From positions 1 to 22,607 of IMG/VR virus record IMGVR_UViG_3300032240_001691: DNA of 22,607 nt; one strand, 5' to 3'. This document shows, piece after piece, positions 345 to 22,607 of this stretch; the stretch's first letter is position 1; each line of letters opens with the position of its first letter. Position numbers and translations under genes: made by a program. A model generated the notes under the pieces. It saw only the letters and a program-made list of their open reading frames with translations, searched no databases and had not been told where the DNA came from. Origin of the DNA: a virus.

Positions 345-404
345 ATGTTGATGGTTCAATTAAAAGGCAATTCAATAGATATATGATATATTTACCATCA
401 ACAT
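345..404. other. 11-bp inverted repeat in divergent intergenic gap
   Basis: ATGTTGATGGT at 345-355 is exactly complementary to ACCATCAACAT at 394-404, enclosing 38 bases. The enclosed part contains a TTCAAT direct repeat and an AT-rich near-palindrome (ATATATGATATAT). No T-run follows either arm, so it is not a simple terminator. It could be the stem of a small RNA ended by the neighbouring hairpin, or a protein-binding operator between the divergent genes. The rest of 241-469 shows nothing else I can name. Confidence 0.45.
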
Positions 405-700: not shown

Positions 701-1150
701 GAGCATAGAAAGTTCTACAACCTCATATTATAGGAAGTAATATAGACCTTTTATATTCTATATTCAAGCCTTCATCTCTCTAACCACCTTTCTTAACTAT
801 GGTCCAACCGTGAGTTCATATTCAGTTGATTTCTCGGGTTGTGAATTTAGACACAGCGCCCTATTGAATATTAGTGAAACTTACCTAAGATATTATCTTT
901 AAGGATTTTGTAGGACTTATTTTTGTTTATCTTCCTGATGCTTTAGTCTCGGTTACTACTTACGCACAAAACCGACATTACTGCTAATTTATCTCTGGCT
1001 GACCAGGCATGGACTTCACCGTAGTTACTTGATACCATGAACCTTTCATCTATATTATAAACTATATTTACCTCTTAATTGCCCGTAGTATGTTGCCGTT
1101 ATTCTTGTGATTGCTTGTTATTGCCTTAATATTTATATTATATGTATTAA
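701..1150. ncRNA. Candidate structured non-coding RNA, strand unknown
   Basis: No convincing ORF is present on either strand. Composition differs from the flanks: bases 961-1020 hold 28 G+C in 60, against 16 in 60 at 1861-1920. Several local helices can be drawn: 805-809 with 837-841 continued by 812-814 with 833-835; 884-886 and 887-892 with 896-904; 949-954 with 970-975; 995-998 with 1003-1006; and 1008-1012 with 1035-1039. Near 1079-1124 the pattern (A/G)TTGC recurs four times. High G+C islands with local pairing in an AT-rich phage genome often mark RNA genes. I could not match tRNA, tmRNA, RNase P RNA or a convincing group I intron. It could be a large phage RNA of the GOLLD or ROOL kind, or something new. 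Confidence 0.35.
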
Positions 1151-1209
1151 CCTAAAAAAGTTTATTTTAGAAAAGATGGATTGTTTATGGTACTTTAAAT
1201 TAAACTTCT

Positions 1210-1217
1210 TATATTTG
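1210..1217 (+). promoter_or_regulatory. TAnnTTTG promoter -7 box
   Basis: TATATTTG fits the Bacteroidota -7 element exactly and lies 26 bases before the ATG at 1244. No good TTG box stands at the usual spacing (the nearest TTG, 1181-1183, is too far upstream), so this is the weaker of the two host-type promoter candidates. Confidence 0.4.
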
Positions 1218-1243
1218 TATAAATAAAACTAAAAAAATATATT

Positions 1244-1465
1244 ATGATTATTAAAGAACAAAAAGAACAAAGAGGTTTTGAGGTTTTTATCGTTAAAGGT
1301 AATGATAAAGATATTCAACAACATTTTTACAATGCTTATCCTAAAAAAACAATCTCTATTTTAGAACACCTTAATAACAAAGGCACATTTGAGGTTATGA
1401 TTCTACCAGAAGAATTGATTGATGAAGAAGAAGATGATAATTTTCAATACGCAGAAAGAGATTAA
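1244..1465 (+). CDS. Small acidic hypothetical protein (73 aa)
   Basis: A 73-residue product that begins with a charged segment (KEQKEQR), continues with a mixed alpha/beta middle and ends in a strongly acidic tail (IDEEEDDNFQYAERD). I do not recognise the family. It has its own candidate -7 box at 1210-1217 and is followed after 30 bases by the next small gene, so it probably heads the rightward unit 1244-2266. Acidic phage proteins of this size sometimes mimic nucleic acid or bind host proteins; that is only a general possibility here. Confidence 0.65.
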   Translation: MIIKEQKEQRGFEVFIVKGNDKDIQQHFYNAYPKKTISILEHLNNKGTFEVMILPEELIDEEEDDNFQYAERD

Positions 1466-3200: not shown

Positions 3201-4312
3201 TATGCACCTTCATTAATTTTTTGTATGTCTAATTCATATTTGTTAAGCACTAATTTAGTTTGTGAGCCATTAAACTTTAATAATCTATTAAATTCACCTG
3301 CTACTATATCTTGTTTAGGCGCAACATACATAGATTGAAATATCTCTAACGATTCTAAGACTACTGACTTTTGACCTAATTCACCAGGTGTTGATATACC
3401 AAACAAACCTGGATTAGTTACAGAGTGTCCTGTTAAAATACCTTGTGTGATTTCACCATTAAGTTGTATAAATCTTTCATCTGAATTATTTAATTGAACT
3501 GGCGTAATCTCTGCTGCTCTATCTTTACCATCAGCGAATAGGAACATCACCGTCTCACCTTTAGCGCCTCTAAAGTCATGTTTAAGTTGTCTAACAACAT
3601 CTTTCATCTCATCATCTGAAGGCACACCGTTATTGAAATTAATAATCATTGAAGGCATAAAACCGTTTTGAACTTGATTTAAGTGAAAAGAAGCAATTTC
3701 CCATTCTAATGATATCCAAGGCACACAACTAATATATTCTGGCATACCATAATACTCAGTTCCTGGTCTGTATTCTTTAACATACATAATTTGATTAGCA
3801 GTAGGATTTTTAGGATTATAAGCAGGATACTTCTCAGGTCCGAACTTTCTTAAATTAGACCAGTCGTTAGAATAAAATACTGATTTACCATCTTCACTTA
3901 AACGCACTTTATTTACAGGTATATAATTTACCTCAGCAATCTTAGTCTTATCTTTTGAGTAAATAATCTCTAAAGCAAAGGCGCCAAATAATTCTAAATC
4001 ATAAGCCGCTCTAAAAGCAATCTCGTTTAGATTCATTTCATTATAAGGATTTGCTAATAATTGAGCCGCTATGCCATCTACACTTGTGATATCAAAGCCA
4101 TTACCAGCAATCATCGTTGCTTTTCTTTTTACAATTGCGTTGTGTTTAGCACTTCTATTCATCAATGTAATTAAATAGTCAGGATAAAGATTATCTTCAC
4201 CATAACTTACATAACCTGCTCTTGTAACTCTTTCAGTATAAATAGGCAGAGATTCTGTTATATTATTGAAACTGCTAAAAGCGAATTGTAATACATTCTT
4301 TTCGTTTTCCAT
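3200..4312 (-). CDS. Phage portal protein
   Basis: 370 residues, at the short end for portals. The portal forms the dodecameric ring at one capsid vertex through which DNA is packaged and ejected. Supporting features are the early segment YGEDNLYPDYL (37-47), the conserved loop EYYGMPEYI (about 186-194) followed by WISLEWEIASFHLNQVQNGF, the strand SMIINFNNG (221-229), and the late segment LTGHSVTNPGLFGIST before a C-terminal helix. The YYGxPxY loop is characteristic of HK97/PBSX-type portals. It lies downstream of two small genes in the unit starting at 4980 and is coupled to the connector gene. The usual neighbour, terminase, is not in the window. Confidence 0.85.
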   Translation of the reverse strand: MENEKNVLQFAFSSFNNITESLPIYTERVTRAGYVSYGEDNLYPDYLITLMNRSAKHNAIVKRKATMIAGNGFDITSVDGIAAQLLANPYNEMNLNEIAFRAAYDLELFGAFALEIIYSKDKTKIAEVNYIPVNKVRLSEDGKSVFYSNDWSNLRKFGPEKYPAYNPKNPTANQIMYVKEYRPGTEYYGMPEYISCVPWISLEWEIASFHLNQVQNGFMPSMIINFNNGVPSDDEMKDVVRQLKHDFRGAKGETVMFLFADGKDRAAEITPVQLNNSDERFIQLNGEITQGILTGHSVTNPGLFGISTPGELGQKSVVLESLEIFQSMYVAPKQDIVAGEFNRLLKFNGSQTKLVLNKYELDIQKINEGA

Positions 4313-12040: not shown

Positions 12041-14746
12041 TTATACACCATACTTGGTTGCTATGTATGATTGTAAAGAAGTTTTATCGCTGTTTGATAA
12101 AGTTCCATCAAGACATATAACCTCAGCAACATTCATCTTAGGTGTACCGCCATAGGCATTCACATATCCACCAAGCACAATCATATCTCTGTTATAGCCA
12201 GTTGATGAGCTATATAAAACATTATTTTTACTTATAATCGCGCTGCCAAATGAACTGCTTGACGATACATACCAATTTGATGTTGTTGTAGGTCCTGTAA
12301 TTTCAATCATACCTAACACAAAACCATCAGTAACAACACTACCAGTATCTTGAAGAAGTGTATTTCCACCACCATTGTTTGTATAGAATGCCCAATAATT
12401 TGTATTACCAACATGAGCAAATAAACTTTCGTGAGTACCTGAACTTGGTGATGATGATGAACCATTATTACTATCAATTGACATAACATTATTGTCGCCA
12501 CTTGTGTTATACATTCTTGCAATAACTATTACGGTTTTACCAACTGATGAATAACCAGTCAAAGCAAACATACCTTGGTCACCACCTGAAGAACCTGCAT
12601 TAAAAGCAATTGCAGGATTGTTATTTAACACACTATCAGATGATATAAATCCATAAGTATATGAGTTGTAAGGCGCAAGAACTTTTGAGTTCAAACCTGT
12701 CCAACTAATAACATTAGCACCACTATAACCAACACCTGTTGAGGCATTCCACCAATCATTAAGATTTGATATAGAAGCAGGAGTCCAAGCACCGCCACCG
12801 CCTTTTGGCATAACAATAAATGGCGTTGCCTTAGTAATCCACATATTATCACCATCATAAGCACCATCAAGTGTAAATGAACCTGATAATCCTGAGCCGG
12901 TTGAGCCAATTATACCTAAATCAGTTGATATAATTTTATAATTTGAGTAAGTTCCTAACTTAAAACTATATGTCGCAGCATCAATCATCCATTTATATGT
13001 GCCGGTTGAAGCCGTGCCATATGAGTATTGAGTATCGCCAACAAGTTTAATTTTAATAACTGAAGCAGATGATAGGTTTTGATTAACTTGTCCTGATACT
13101 GAATAAGATGCAAATGAAGCACCTGAACCAGCAGGTCCTGTCGCACCAGTTGCACCATTAAGACCACTTGAACCTGAACTTCCTGATATACCTGATGAAC
13201 CACTTGAACCTGAACTTCCTGATATACCTGATGAACCACTTGAACCTGATGAACCTGAACTGCCTGATGAACCTGAACTACCTGATGAACCACTTGAACC
13301 ATTTGCTCCAGATGTTCCATTTTTACCATTAAAGCCCCAAGATACAGCCGATTGTAAGCCATATGTAAGTGTTCCATTACCTGATAAATAAGATACGCCT
13401 ATATCATACCAAGTTGATTGAGCAGTCATAGATGTTATAGTATAAATACCAACAATTCTTGCATCATAATATCCTGTTCTGCCTGTTATTTGTATATAAG
13501 TTGTTTGACCTGATGTAAATGCCGTATTCATAGCACTTAACCAAGATAAAGCAAAGAATTCGGTGGAGTTTGATATACTTATTTTTGTGATTGATGCTAT
13601 ATTTGTGCTGTCTGTTTTATAAAAGCCTGAGCCAGGGTCAGAGTATGAACCTGTGCCACCAAATGAATATATTATAGTCAAAGGCGCATCAGCACCTAAA
13701 GAACCTTGAGCACCTGATGAACCACTTGAACCAGAAGTTCCTGATGAACCTGATGAACCACTGATACCATTAGAACCTATTGTTCCATTTATACCTGATG
13801 AGCCGCTTGAACCAGAAGTTCCATTTGAACCTGACGAGCCAGCAATACTTGTTGTTCCACATATATAACCAGAGGCATCGGTTGCTAAAAATTGTCCTAT
13901 AATCGTGCTTCCTGCTGTGCCACCTGGAACTGCACCATAGTTTGATGTATAATAAGGTCTTATATTTACACCATTGAAGTAAATACCATAATCATCAACA
14001 TTAAATCTTGTTTTACCACCAGTTGCAAATGATAAATTAGGAAATAAGCCACCTGGTGAGCCTTGAAATATACCCATATCTGTTTTATTAGCAAATGAAT
14101 ACATTGGCTTTGACGCAGAACCAGCAGTTCCTGCTATAATTGAATAAGTTCCTGTGTTATTTCCAATCTTTAAGGTTTCTAATAGATTTTGACTTGAGTT
14201 TTTTATATTTATGCCATTCAATTCTATATTTGTTCCTGAGTTAGAAATAGCCATCCAAGATTTATCTGGTTCAAATCTTAAAATATAAGGCGACGCGACA
14301 TCATAAGCATAACCAACAACTCTTAAAATTGACTGAGTGGCTCCATTTTGAGTAGGATTAAATCCATCAACAGCACCTTTTGTATTAATGCCGCTTGTTG
14401 TAGCAGTCATTAAATAAATAGCAGCACCCTCTGTTAAATTACCATAACAATAACCACCAGAACCTATTTGACCTGGCGAGTAATAACCTTTTAAAAGGAT
14501 TTGTATTTCAGTTCCACTTTGAGTAGAACTTATTGTTGAAAATGTGCCTACTTCAAGAGCAACTCCTAACTGGTGGTCGCCATATGGATTTGAAGTTATA
14601 TCAGCGTCTGCTATAAACCAAGCGCCTTTTGTAACACCAGGTGTAACTGGGTCTTCTGATTTACAATAAATAACTTGTCCTACATTTACATTTTCACCTA
14701 TTACACCTAATACGGTTTCACCTACATATTGTCCTTGTTGTGCCAT
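12041..14746 (-). CDS. Collagen-like tail fibre with lectin-like C-terminal domain
   Basis: 901 residues. Residues 1-165 form a beta-rich domain (GVALEVGTFS, LLKGYYSPGQIG, GAAIYLMTA, and FEPDKSW at 158-164) likely to attach to the virion. Two glycine-every-third-residue stretches follow, at 303-350 and 474-541, mainly GSSG and GTSG with single GPAG, GATG and GINGT units, indicating a collagen-like triple helix. A beta-rich domain (about 351-470) lies between. The C-terminal domain (653-901) begins ISNLNDWWNASTGVGYSG and ends DKTSLQSYIATKYGV, a pattern of LamG/concanavalin-like lectins. This suggests a trimeric fibre that binds a surface sugar on the host. The gene is 20 bases from the hub gene and part of the same leftward unit. 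Confidence 0.8.
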   Translation of the reverse strand: MAQQGQYVGETVLGVIGENVNVGQVIYCKSEDPVTPGVTKGAWFIADADITSNPYGDHQLGVALEVGTFSTISSTQSGTEIQILLKGYYSPGQIGSGGYCYGNLTEGAAIYLMTATTSGINTKGAVDGFNPTQNGATQSILRVVGYAYDVASPYILRFEPDKSWMAISNSGTNIELNGINIKNSSQNLLETLKIGNNTGTYSIIAGTAGSASKPMYSFANKTDMGIFQGSPGGLFPNLSFATGGKTRFNVDDYGIYFNGVNIRPYYTSNYGAVPGGTAGSTIIGQFLATDASGYICGTTSIAGSSGSNGTSGSSGSSGINGTIGSNGISGSSGSSGTSGSSGSSGAQGSLGADAPLTIIYSFGGTGSYSDPGSGFYKTDSTNIASITKISISNSTEFFALSWLSAMNTAFTSGQTTYIQITGRTGYYDARIVGIYTITSMTAQSTWYDIGVSYLSGNGTLTYGLQSAVSWGFNGKNGTSGANGSSGSSGSSGSSGSSGSSGSSGSSGISGSSGSSGSSGISGSSGSSGLNGATGATGPAGSGASFASYSVSGQVNQNLSSASVIKIKLVGDTQYSYGTASTGTYKWMIDAATYSFKLGTYSNYKIISTDLGIIGSTGSGLSGSFTLDGAYDGDNMWITKATPFIVMPKGGGGAWTPASISNLNDWWNASTGVGYSGANVISWTGLNSKVLAPYNSYTYGFISSDSVLNNNPAIAFNAGSSGGDQGMFALTGYSSVGKTVIVIARMYNTSGDNNVMSIDSNNGSSSSPSSGTHESLFAHVGNTNYWAFYTNNGGGNTLLQDTGSVVTDGFVLGMIEITGPTTTSNWYVSSSSSFGSAIISKNNVLYSSSTGYNRDMIVLGGYVNAYGGTPKMNVAEVICLDGTLSNSDKTSLQSYIATKYGV
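13164..13235 (-). repeat. Two perfect 36-bp tandem copies in the collagen region
   Basis: Bases 13164-13199 and 13200-13235 are identical, with a 13-base partial third copy after them. Each unit encodes twelve residues of GSSG/GISG repeat. The exact identity shows a recent in-frame duplication and means that repeat number can change the length of this fibre segment. Confidence 0.9.
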
Positions 14747-20827: not shown

Positions 20828-22607
20828 TTAATTTGTTCCTTGGAAGAAAATAACAGGATTAATACCAGTAGAATTTTGCTGACCTATTAATGAGGCTGTT
20901 AAAGAAACCGCTGGTGAAGCATATGATGAAACATAGGTATAACCATATGTATTATTATTTAAATTTGAGGCTAAAAATGGTAATGCGATGTTTGCTTGAG
21001 TTGTAGTAGTTGTTATTGCTCCTGTATTAGTATCACTTACTATACCCATCCAATACATAGTTCCAGAAGACATCGTGCCACTCTGTGTAAAAGTTTTAAT
21101 ACCAGTTGTCGCTTTTGATAAAGATGTGCTTTCTAAAATTTTATTAGTTGGAAGACCATCTACATCATCATAAATTAAAATCTTAGTATTAGTTGCAGCA
21201 ACAGCTGTTGTTACATTAATACTTAAACCAGTATATGTAAATGTTCTACCTGGAACATAAGGCATTAAATTAATTGTTCCTGCTGTATGAGTTGATGAAT
21301 TTAAACTACTTGAACCAATAACTGATATATTACTTATCAACCAAGATGAAGATGGAGCTTTTGCTCTTGCAAATACTGACGAGCCACCGGTACCAGAAAC
21401 ACCTGATGAACCGCTTGAACCTGATGAGCCATTAGCACCTGAACTACCTGATGAGCCTGATGAACCATTAACACCTGAACTACCTGATGAGCCTGATGAA
21501 CCGCTTGAACCTGATGAGCCTGATGAACCGCTTGAACCTGACGAACCAGATGTGCCGCTTGAACCTGAACTACCACTAATTCCTGAAGATCCTGAACTAC
21601 CACTAACTCCTGATGAACCTGATGAACCTGATGAACCAGCAGGACCAGTATCACCTTGTGGCCCAACATCACCTTTTGGTCCTGACAATTCTATAAATAA
21701 GAAATCGCCATCTAAAGTGTTAGAATATGTTGAACCTAAATATGGTGCCGTTAATGAACCTTTTATATCAAACCAATAAACTTGGTTTTTAGTTAAACCT
21801 TTTACTATAGTATTCATAGTAACTAATTCTTTAGGAACGCCATAAGAAGCATTACTATCAACAGGCTGTATATTTACATAAGATACGGTTGTACCTATAT
21901 TTGTTTGTGATCCGTTAGTAGGTGCTGAGCCAGTACCATATATTAGATAATACTGAGTCGTAAACACAGCAGGCGATGCGTTTTGAGTATTCAAGGCAAA
22001 TGTACCTGTAAAGTCAATAAAAACATCACCAACCGAAGTAGTTGAGAATGTTGAACCAAAACCATACCATATATTAGGAGTAGAATAAGGGTCGCTATTA
22101 TAGATTGTTTTTGTTGGTAGTGCTGTTTTAAGACTATTCATAGCAGTAGGCAACACCGTTTGACCTGATGTACCATTTATACCTGATGTACCGGCAGAAC
22201 CAGAAGTACCTGATGAGCCACTTGAACCTGATGTACCATTTACACCATTTGTTCCGTTAGCACCAGATGAACCACTTGTTCCATTTACACCAGATGAACC
22301 ACTTGTTCCATTTACACCAGATGAACCACTTGTTCCTGAATCAGCAGCAACAGCAACAAATATATTAGTATTATTTGTGAATGATACCGTCGAATTAATT
22401 AAAGTTACTGGCACAATCCAGTAATTATCAGCACCTGATACTAATGTAGGTGTACCACTAACATCCCAAGTTTGATATTGTGATGAATTTGTTTGATGTT
22501 GTATAACCAAATTAGAACCTTGTCTTATCAAGCCTAAAAATATATCAACATCTACATTATCTGTTGTTAAATGACTAATATGAATAGCAGTTGCTCCTGT
22601 TTGAGTA
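20828..22607 (-). CDS. Collagen-like fibre protein, N-terminus beyond the window
   Basis: The frame is open to the right edge: 25 codons upstream of TTG 22531 continue the same domain (ISHLTTDNVDVDIFLGL), so this gene is 5'-truncated rather than starting at TTG 22531. The visible part has a beta domain ending TNIFVAVAADS, a first collagen-like stretch (about 22158-22337; GSSG, GTSG, GVNG), a beta-rich spacer (WYGFGSTFSTTS), a second stretch (about 21385-21685) that begins with true collagen-like GPKGDVGPQGDTGPAG, and a C-terminal beta-sandwich-like domain (IYDDVDGLPTNKILESTS, then MYWMGIVSDTNTG). It would be a trimeric fibre, possibly with a binding tip. A 14-base gap separates it from the HAD-like gene. 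Confidence 0.8.
   Translation of the reverse strand, partial: TQTGATAIHISHLTTDNVDVDIFLGLIRQGSNLVIQHQTNSSQYQTWDVSGTPTLVSGADNYWIVPVTLINSTVSFTNNTNIFVAVAADSGTSGSSGVNGTSGSSGVNGTSGSSGANGTNGVNGTSGSSGSSGTSGSAGTSGINGTSGQTVLPTAMNSLKTALPTKTIYNSDPYSTPNIWYGFGSTFSTTSVGDVFIDFTGTFALNTQNASPAVFTTQYYLIYGTGSAPTNGSQTNIGTTVSYVNIQPVDSNASYGVPKELVTMNTIVKGLTKNQVYWFDIKGSLTAPYLGSTYSNTLDGDFLFIELSGPKGDVGPQGDTGPAGSSGSSGSSGVSGSSGSSGISGSSGSSGTSGSSGSSGSSGSSGSSGSSGSSGSSGVNGSSGSSGSSGANGSSGSSGSSGVSGTGGSSVFARAKAPSSSWLISNISVIGSSSLNSSTHTAGTINLMPYVPGRTFTYTGLSINVTTAVAATNTKILIYDDVDGLPTNKILESTSLSKATTGIKTFTQSGTMSSGTMYWMGIVSDTNTGAITTTTTQANIALPFLASNLNNNTYGYTYVSSYASPAVSLTASLIGQQNSTGINPVIFFQGTN
22262..22335 (-). repeat. 27-bp tandem repeat in second collagen gene
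   Basis: Bases 22262-22288 and 22289-22315 are identical and a 20-base third copy follows (22316-22335). Each unit encodes nine residues of the GTSGSSGVN type. As in the other fibre gene, exact copies indicate recent in-frame expansion. Confidence 0.85.

Follow-up and report, generated by a model that had tools for sequence, protein, structure and literature searches.

A probable gene for a structured non-coding RNA in a 22.6-kb phage record

The gene-free stretch near the start of the window (the whole 22,607-nucleotide stretch of DNA analysed here) very probably encodes a folded RNA of about 430 bases and no protein. Judged from sequence comparison, it is likely a structured non-coding RNA gene on the minus strand, reading from 1130 to 701. 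The initial annotation had proposed a large phage RNA at this place, matching no class familiar to it, and had named no strand. Such an RNA is now supported by homologues in two further phages, by double substitutions preserving base pairs and by a promoter-like element; no credible Rfam match was obtained for it, and the evidence favours the minus strand.

The window is a single linear IMG/VR virus record and derives from a phage. Its head and tail genes lie on the minus strand (portal gene at 4312-3200), while the small plus-strand genes form a short run at 452-2266. When ORFs of at least 60 amino acids on either strand are counted, 701-1243 is the sole gap of at least 250 nt in the 22.6-kb sequence, which bears out the absence of ORFs described earlier for 701-1150. 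The raised G+C content reported for the same region holds against the immediate neighbours (43% at 951-1050 versus 16-29% in nearby segments) but not against the window, since the whole gap (701-1243) has 31% G+C, a little less than the 33% averaged over the window. Elsewhere in the record, a perfect hairpin AAAAACCTCTACTTCTCGAAAGGTAGAGGTTTTT at 285-319 is likely a two-way terminator, and long collagen-like GSS repeats occur at 12041-14746 and 20828-22531, in two probable fibre proteins.

Relatives of the element were reached stepwise. The portal protein led to phage L006, patterns from the shared end led to L020, and a second pattern led to L161. The homologues are located at 5350-4881 (minus strand) of L020, a related phage, and at 967-1445 (plus strand) of L161, a 32.6-kb phage record. 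Window and L020 are 84% identical over 225 nt of the 3' domain and about 78% identical across the 5' part, and the L020 and L161 elements are 86% identical over 417 nt. The RNA would be about 430 nt long in the window and 470-480 nt in these relatives. A covariance model of the 3'-domain core matched the window, L020 and L161 only; L006 and a further locus, L172, gave no match to it. No homologues were found among INPHARED phages or PLSDB plasmids. In GTDB the 3' block had no exact counterpart and the 5' block had one match, which was coding and due to chance, and the model matched none of 395 GTDB genomes of one phylum in a search that had no positive control. Other pattern matches (L015-L019, L021-L027 and L214-L224) were dismissed as coding or chance.

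All six frames of the element contain stops. Most of the internal indels that separate L020 from L161 have 1-2 nt, which argues against a protein. Stop-free stretches of 53 codons, one in the window and one in L020, are not kept in L161, and no ORF conserved across the homologues, which the initial annotation had named as a sign against an RNA, was found on either strand. Conservation without an open frame is a mark of structured non-coding RNA.

Folded alone, the window sequence was no more stable than its dinucleotide shuffles (z 0.01 on the plus strand and +1.18 on the minus strand), so the five local helices drawn in the initial annotation, although drawable, are not evidence by themselves. 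Single sequences in general did not exceed shuffles in stability. Most of the particular helices drawn were not supported by the homologues either: 805-841 is not among the homologue-supported helices, 884-904 receives weak support, and 949-975, 995-1006 and 1008-1039 fall inside a domain without sequence conservation. RNAalifold analysis of L020 and L161 gave −65.6 kcal/mol on the strand equivalent to the window minus strand (z −4.05 against column shuffles, 0/60) and −48.3 kcal/mol on the opposite strand (z −3.07). The 3'-domain alignment of all three sequences gave z −3.06 (minus) and −4.44 (plus). With the window, whose central domain aligns poorly with L020 and L161, added to the full-length alignment, the values were −2.65 (minus, 1/60) and −1.90 (plus).

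Within the 3' domain, a set of five helices, chosen by eye from the alignment used to test it, was paired in 84 of 84 cells (100%) and contained four double substitutions, against none when the partners were slid by 1-3 columns. The full-length L020/L161 model, also derived from the alignment that tests it, held seven double substitutions versus 0-1 when slid. Loss of covariation among homologues had been proposed as a sign against an RNA; what was found are substitutions on both sides that keep the pairs, as in structured RNAs. Since the alignments are small, with at most three sequences, and substitutions are few because there are only three full-length homologues, this covariation is good and suggestive, not conclusive or statistical proof. 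Nested helices on the minus strand at 818-871 (865-871/818-824, 859-861/836-838 and 852-855/840-843) include three pairs with double substitutions. The long-range helix AGAAAG/CTTTCT (788-793 with 707-712) has one double substitution, being AGAGAG/CTCTCT in L020 and L161. The hairpin AATATAGA/TCTATATT (739-764) also pairs in the homologue alignment, and is uninformative on covariation because it is invariant.

On the minus strand, the putative RNA can be divided into a 5' leader (1067-1125), a central domain (943-1066) and a conserved 3' domain (701-923), the last predicted to hold the nested and long-range helices. The leader is near-invariant and carries GGCAAT-like repeats, seen on the strand presented here as the four (A/G)TTGC copies that had been noticed near 1079-1124, where they are indeed present, at irregular spacings (14, 18 and 10). 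Its segment ACGGGCAATTAAGAGGTAAA is identical in three phages and is the most conserved stretch of all; no covarying helix was found in the leader, which is probably single-stranded. The central domain varies in sequence and length, and ends in a conserved CCGAGACTAAA (943-953). Since the leader is conserved without a helix or a long complement, a contact site for a protein or RNP is its simplest reading. During infection the RNA may act in trans, its folded body serving as a scaffold or decoy for an RNP or a protein of host or phage and its leader as the site of contact, a mechanism that we put forward as speculative. A search for antisense pairing of the leader with genes of the same phage gave merely G-U-rich runs of 12-14 nt.

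Upstream of the leader, the minus strand carries a conserved promoter-like block, CCATAAACAATCCATCTTTTCTAAAA (1165-1190), found at the same place in L020 and L006; L172 has it as well, with one base inserted. It is followed after 17-18 nt by a TATA-like box, TACATATAATATAAA (1132-1146), conserved with L006 and L020. At the leader end in the window, L020 and L006, the consensus of the element is CCATAAAnAATCCAyCTTTTCTAAAA-N17-18-TAnATATAA. The block core occurs once in the window versus 0.04 times expected, and the same block precedes ORF starts by about 65-75 nt in L008 (twice), L010, L039 and L133. L161 has no recognisable copy, so that its promoter would differ or have been lost. This phage-type promoter (1190-1132) would belong to the RNA gene itself, with transcription starting just downstream of the TATA-like box, at about 1125-1131, and ending near 701. 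The RNA gene would thus point away from the gene at 1244 and towards the gene ending at 700. The genes that follow the block at L008 10783-10289, L010 4393-3947 and L039 2415-2925 encode proteins of about 150-170 amino acids without a credible Pfam family.

Given that an RNA exists, its assignment to the minus strand is highly likely, on the strength of the orientation of the promoter block, the predominance of purines over pyrimidines at four loci on that strand and the better full-length fold. The opposite view, that the structured RNA belongs, as a 3' UTR or a processed intergenic RNA, to a plus-strand transcript from the promoter that precedes the gene at 452-700, appears unlikely. It draws on the 3' alignment, which folds better on that strand (z −4.44), on a long-range 10-bp helix, AGUUCUACAA/UUGUAGGACU, that stays paired in all three phages through three one-sided G-U changes, and on the position of the element between two plus-orientation genes in the window, L020, L161 and L006. 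Those flanking genes, however, are not homologous, so a UTR role would need to be independent of them, and in L172 the promoter-leader cassette runs opposite to its neighbours. The full-length alignment folds better on the minus strand, and the conserved promoter points into the region on that strand.

An element acting as DNA, for example a replication origin or a packaging site with iteron-like TTGCC repeats and hairpins in single-stranded DNA, is improbable. The TTGC repeats at 1079-1124 do adjoin AT-rich DNA (1125-1240), and a long conserved non-coding DNA that is accessory to transcription units would fit this idea; but the repeats are irregularly spaced, L020 and L006 have fewer of them, several pairs switch between G-C or A-U and G-U, which RNA permits and DNA does not favour, and the promoter points into the element. 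Moreover, L007, of the same phage group, lacks the element at the corresponding place, as would hardly be the case for an essential origin. Even less credit can be given to the idea of a self-splicing intron that has decayed or been permuted, or of some other known ribozyme whose divergence would hide it from Rfam. It was suggested by GAGACTAAA (943-951 region) and AATAAGTCC, which resemble the R and S elements of group I introns, and by GIY-YIG genes, which are common around these loci, one of them directly following the RNA in L172. Yet by inspection neither L020 nor L161 keeps the R/S-like pairing, too few bases separate the two strings, no Rfam intron matched at E≤10 in the window, L020, L161, L006 or L172, and the RNA sits between genes with its own promoter.

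Comparison of the proposed minus-strand RNA with known classes gave no assignment. Nothing in the window reached Rfam gathering scores; the region itself had only a chance match at E=5, and at E≤10 neither it nor its homologues matched GOLLD or ROOL. A weak match to fungal SRP in L161 alone (21.7 bits versus a cut-off of 65) was judged to be chance. Neither ARAGORN nor Rfam found a tmRNA or tRNA, and ARAGORN found no tRNA genes in the window, L006, L020, L161 or L172, loci that are fragments. By Rfam and the other tests used, the predicted RNA is thus not a GOLLD, a ROOL, a group I intron or a tmRNA; it seems to work like none of the systems tested, while it resembles GOLLD and ROOL in kind. 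GOLLD is a large structured phage RNA, often longer than 800 nt, with a conserved 3' region and a less conserved remainder, and both GOLLD and ROOL assemble into RNA-only nanocages, as recent work showed (PMC12286853). The RNA described here is likewise large, structured and phage-borne with a better conserved 3' region; unlike GOLLD, it has about 430-480 nt, no tRNA gene in the loci searched and no match to the Rfam model of GOLLD (E≤10). With ROOL it has in common to be a phage-borne structured RNA without a known protein partner, but it lacks a tRNA island and does not match the Rfam model of ROOL (E≤10). No published account of it was found in the part of the literature searched, so that an earlier description is possible.

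The distribution of the element points to exchange between phages. The L020 phage is related to that of the window (its homologue of the window gene at 1654-1869 is 85% identical), while the L161 phage is distant, with a portal protein 32% and a next gene 28% identical to those of the window. The genes adjoining the element are not homologous between the phages. High identity of the RNA in a distant phage, next to differing genes, reads as horizontal exchange of an independent module, and from these sequences an accessory module passed between distantly related phages is the best reading. Apart from the RNA, and leaving aside the fibre-gene repeats and one short weaker stretch, the main high-identity segment common to the window and the L161 phage is the gene at 2269-2520. 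It encodes an 83-amino-acid protein with a probable membrane segment and coiled coil, 81% identical between the two phages, and by this comparison is a second recently exchanged gene. The putative RNA gene resembles accessory (moron) genes in having its own promoter and unrelated small flanking genes, in being present in some relatives only and in being common to distant phages, and differs from them in that its product would be an RNA and not a protein.

At the place corresponding to the element, L006 has an ORF-poor stretch (3640-4141). There, as in L172 (7580-8060), the promoter block and leader of the window are followed by an ORF-poor body. Compared with L020, this shared part is 83% identical over 99 nt in L006 and 74% over 99 nt in L172, while neither body aligns with the RNA type of the window. 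The L006 body folds better than shuffles on the RNA-equivalent strand (z −2.45) and the L172 body on both strands (z −1.63 and −2.44). Since the L172 cassette has such an inverted orientation and a possible 56-amino-acid ORF inside, it is perhaps not an RNA gene; a protein gene follows the block in L008, L010 and L039. A shared block and leader with non-aligning bodies are cautiously read as a promoter-leader unit with exchangeable bodies. It is conceivable, though we hold this tentatively, that a common slot takes up exchangeable, mutually unrelated large structured RNAs, all driven by one promoter and one GGCAAT leader. The body types of the window/L020/L161, of L006 and of L172 might then form a new class of modular phage RNA, a suggestion that is just as tentative. 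Genes of GIY-YIG type lie near the slot in L172 (7229-7579), L020 (5452-5955) and L006 (3110-3475 and 4454-4801); Pfam confirms the L172 gene only, the L020 and L006 genes being assigned by sequence likeness.

An RNA gene unrelated to GOLLD and ROOL, and short enough for synthesis, would offer a new test case for large phage RNAs, the more useful for its visible promoter and its exchange between distant phages. If the modular reading is true, promoter and leader could be used to find RNAs missed by searches with body sequences. A second small hairpin, with core AATTAAAAGGCAATTCAATAGA, was observed in the next intergenic region of the window (347-404). A counterpart of this core, AATTAAACGGCGATCTAATAGA, lies within another stem in L006 and L007, and a looser GGCAAT version occurs in L020. 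In the window and in L006, the core word of the hairpin is the same as the leader word of the same phage (AAGGCAAT and ACGGCGAT).
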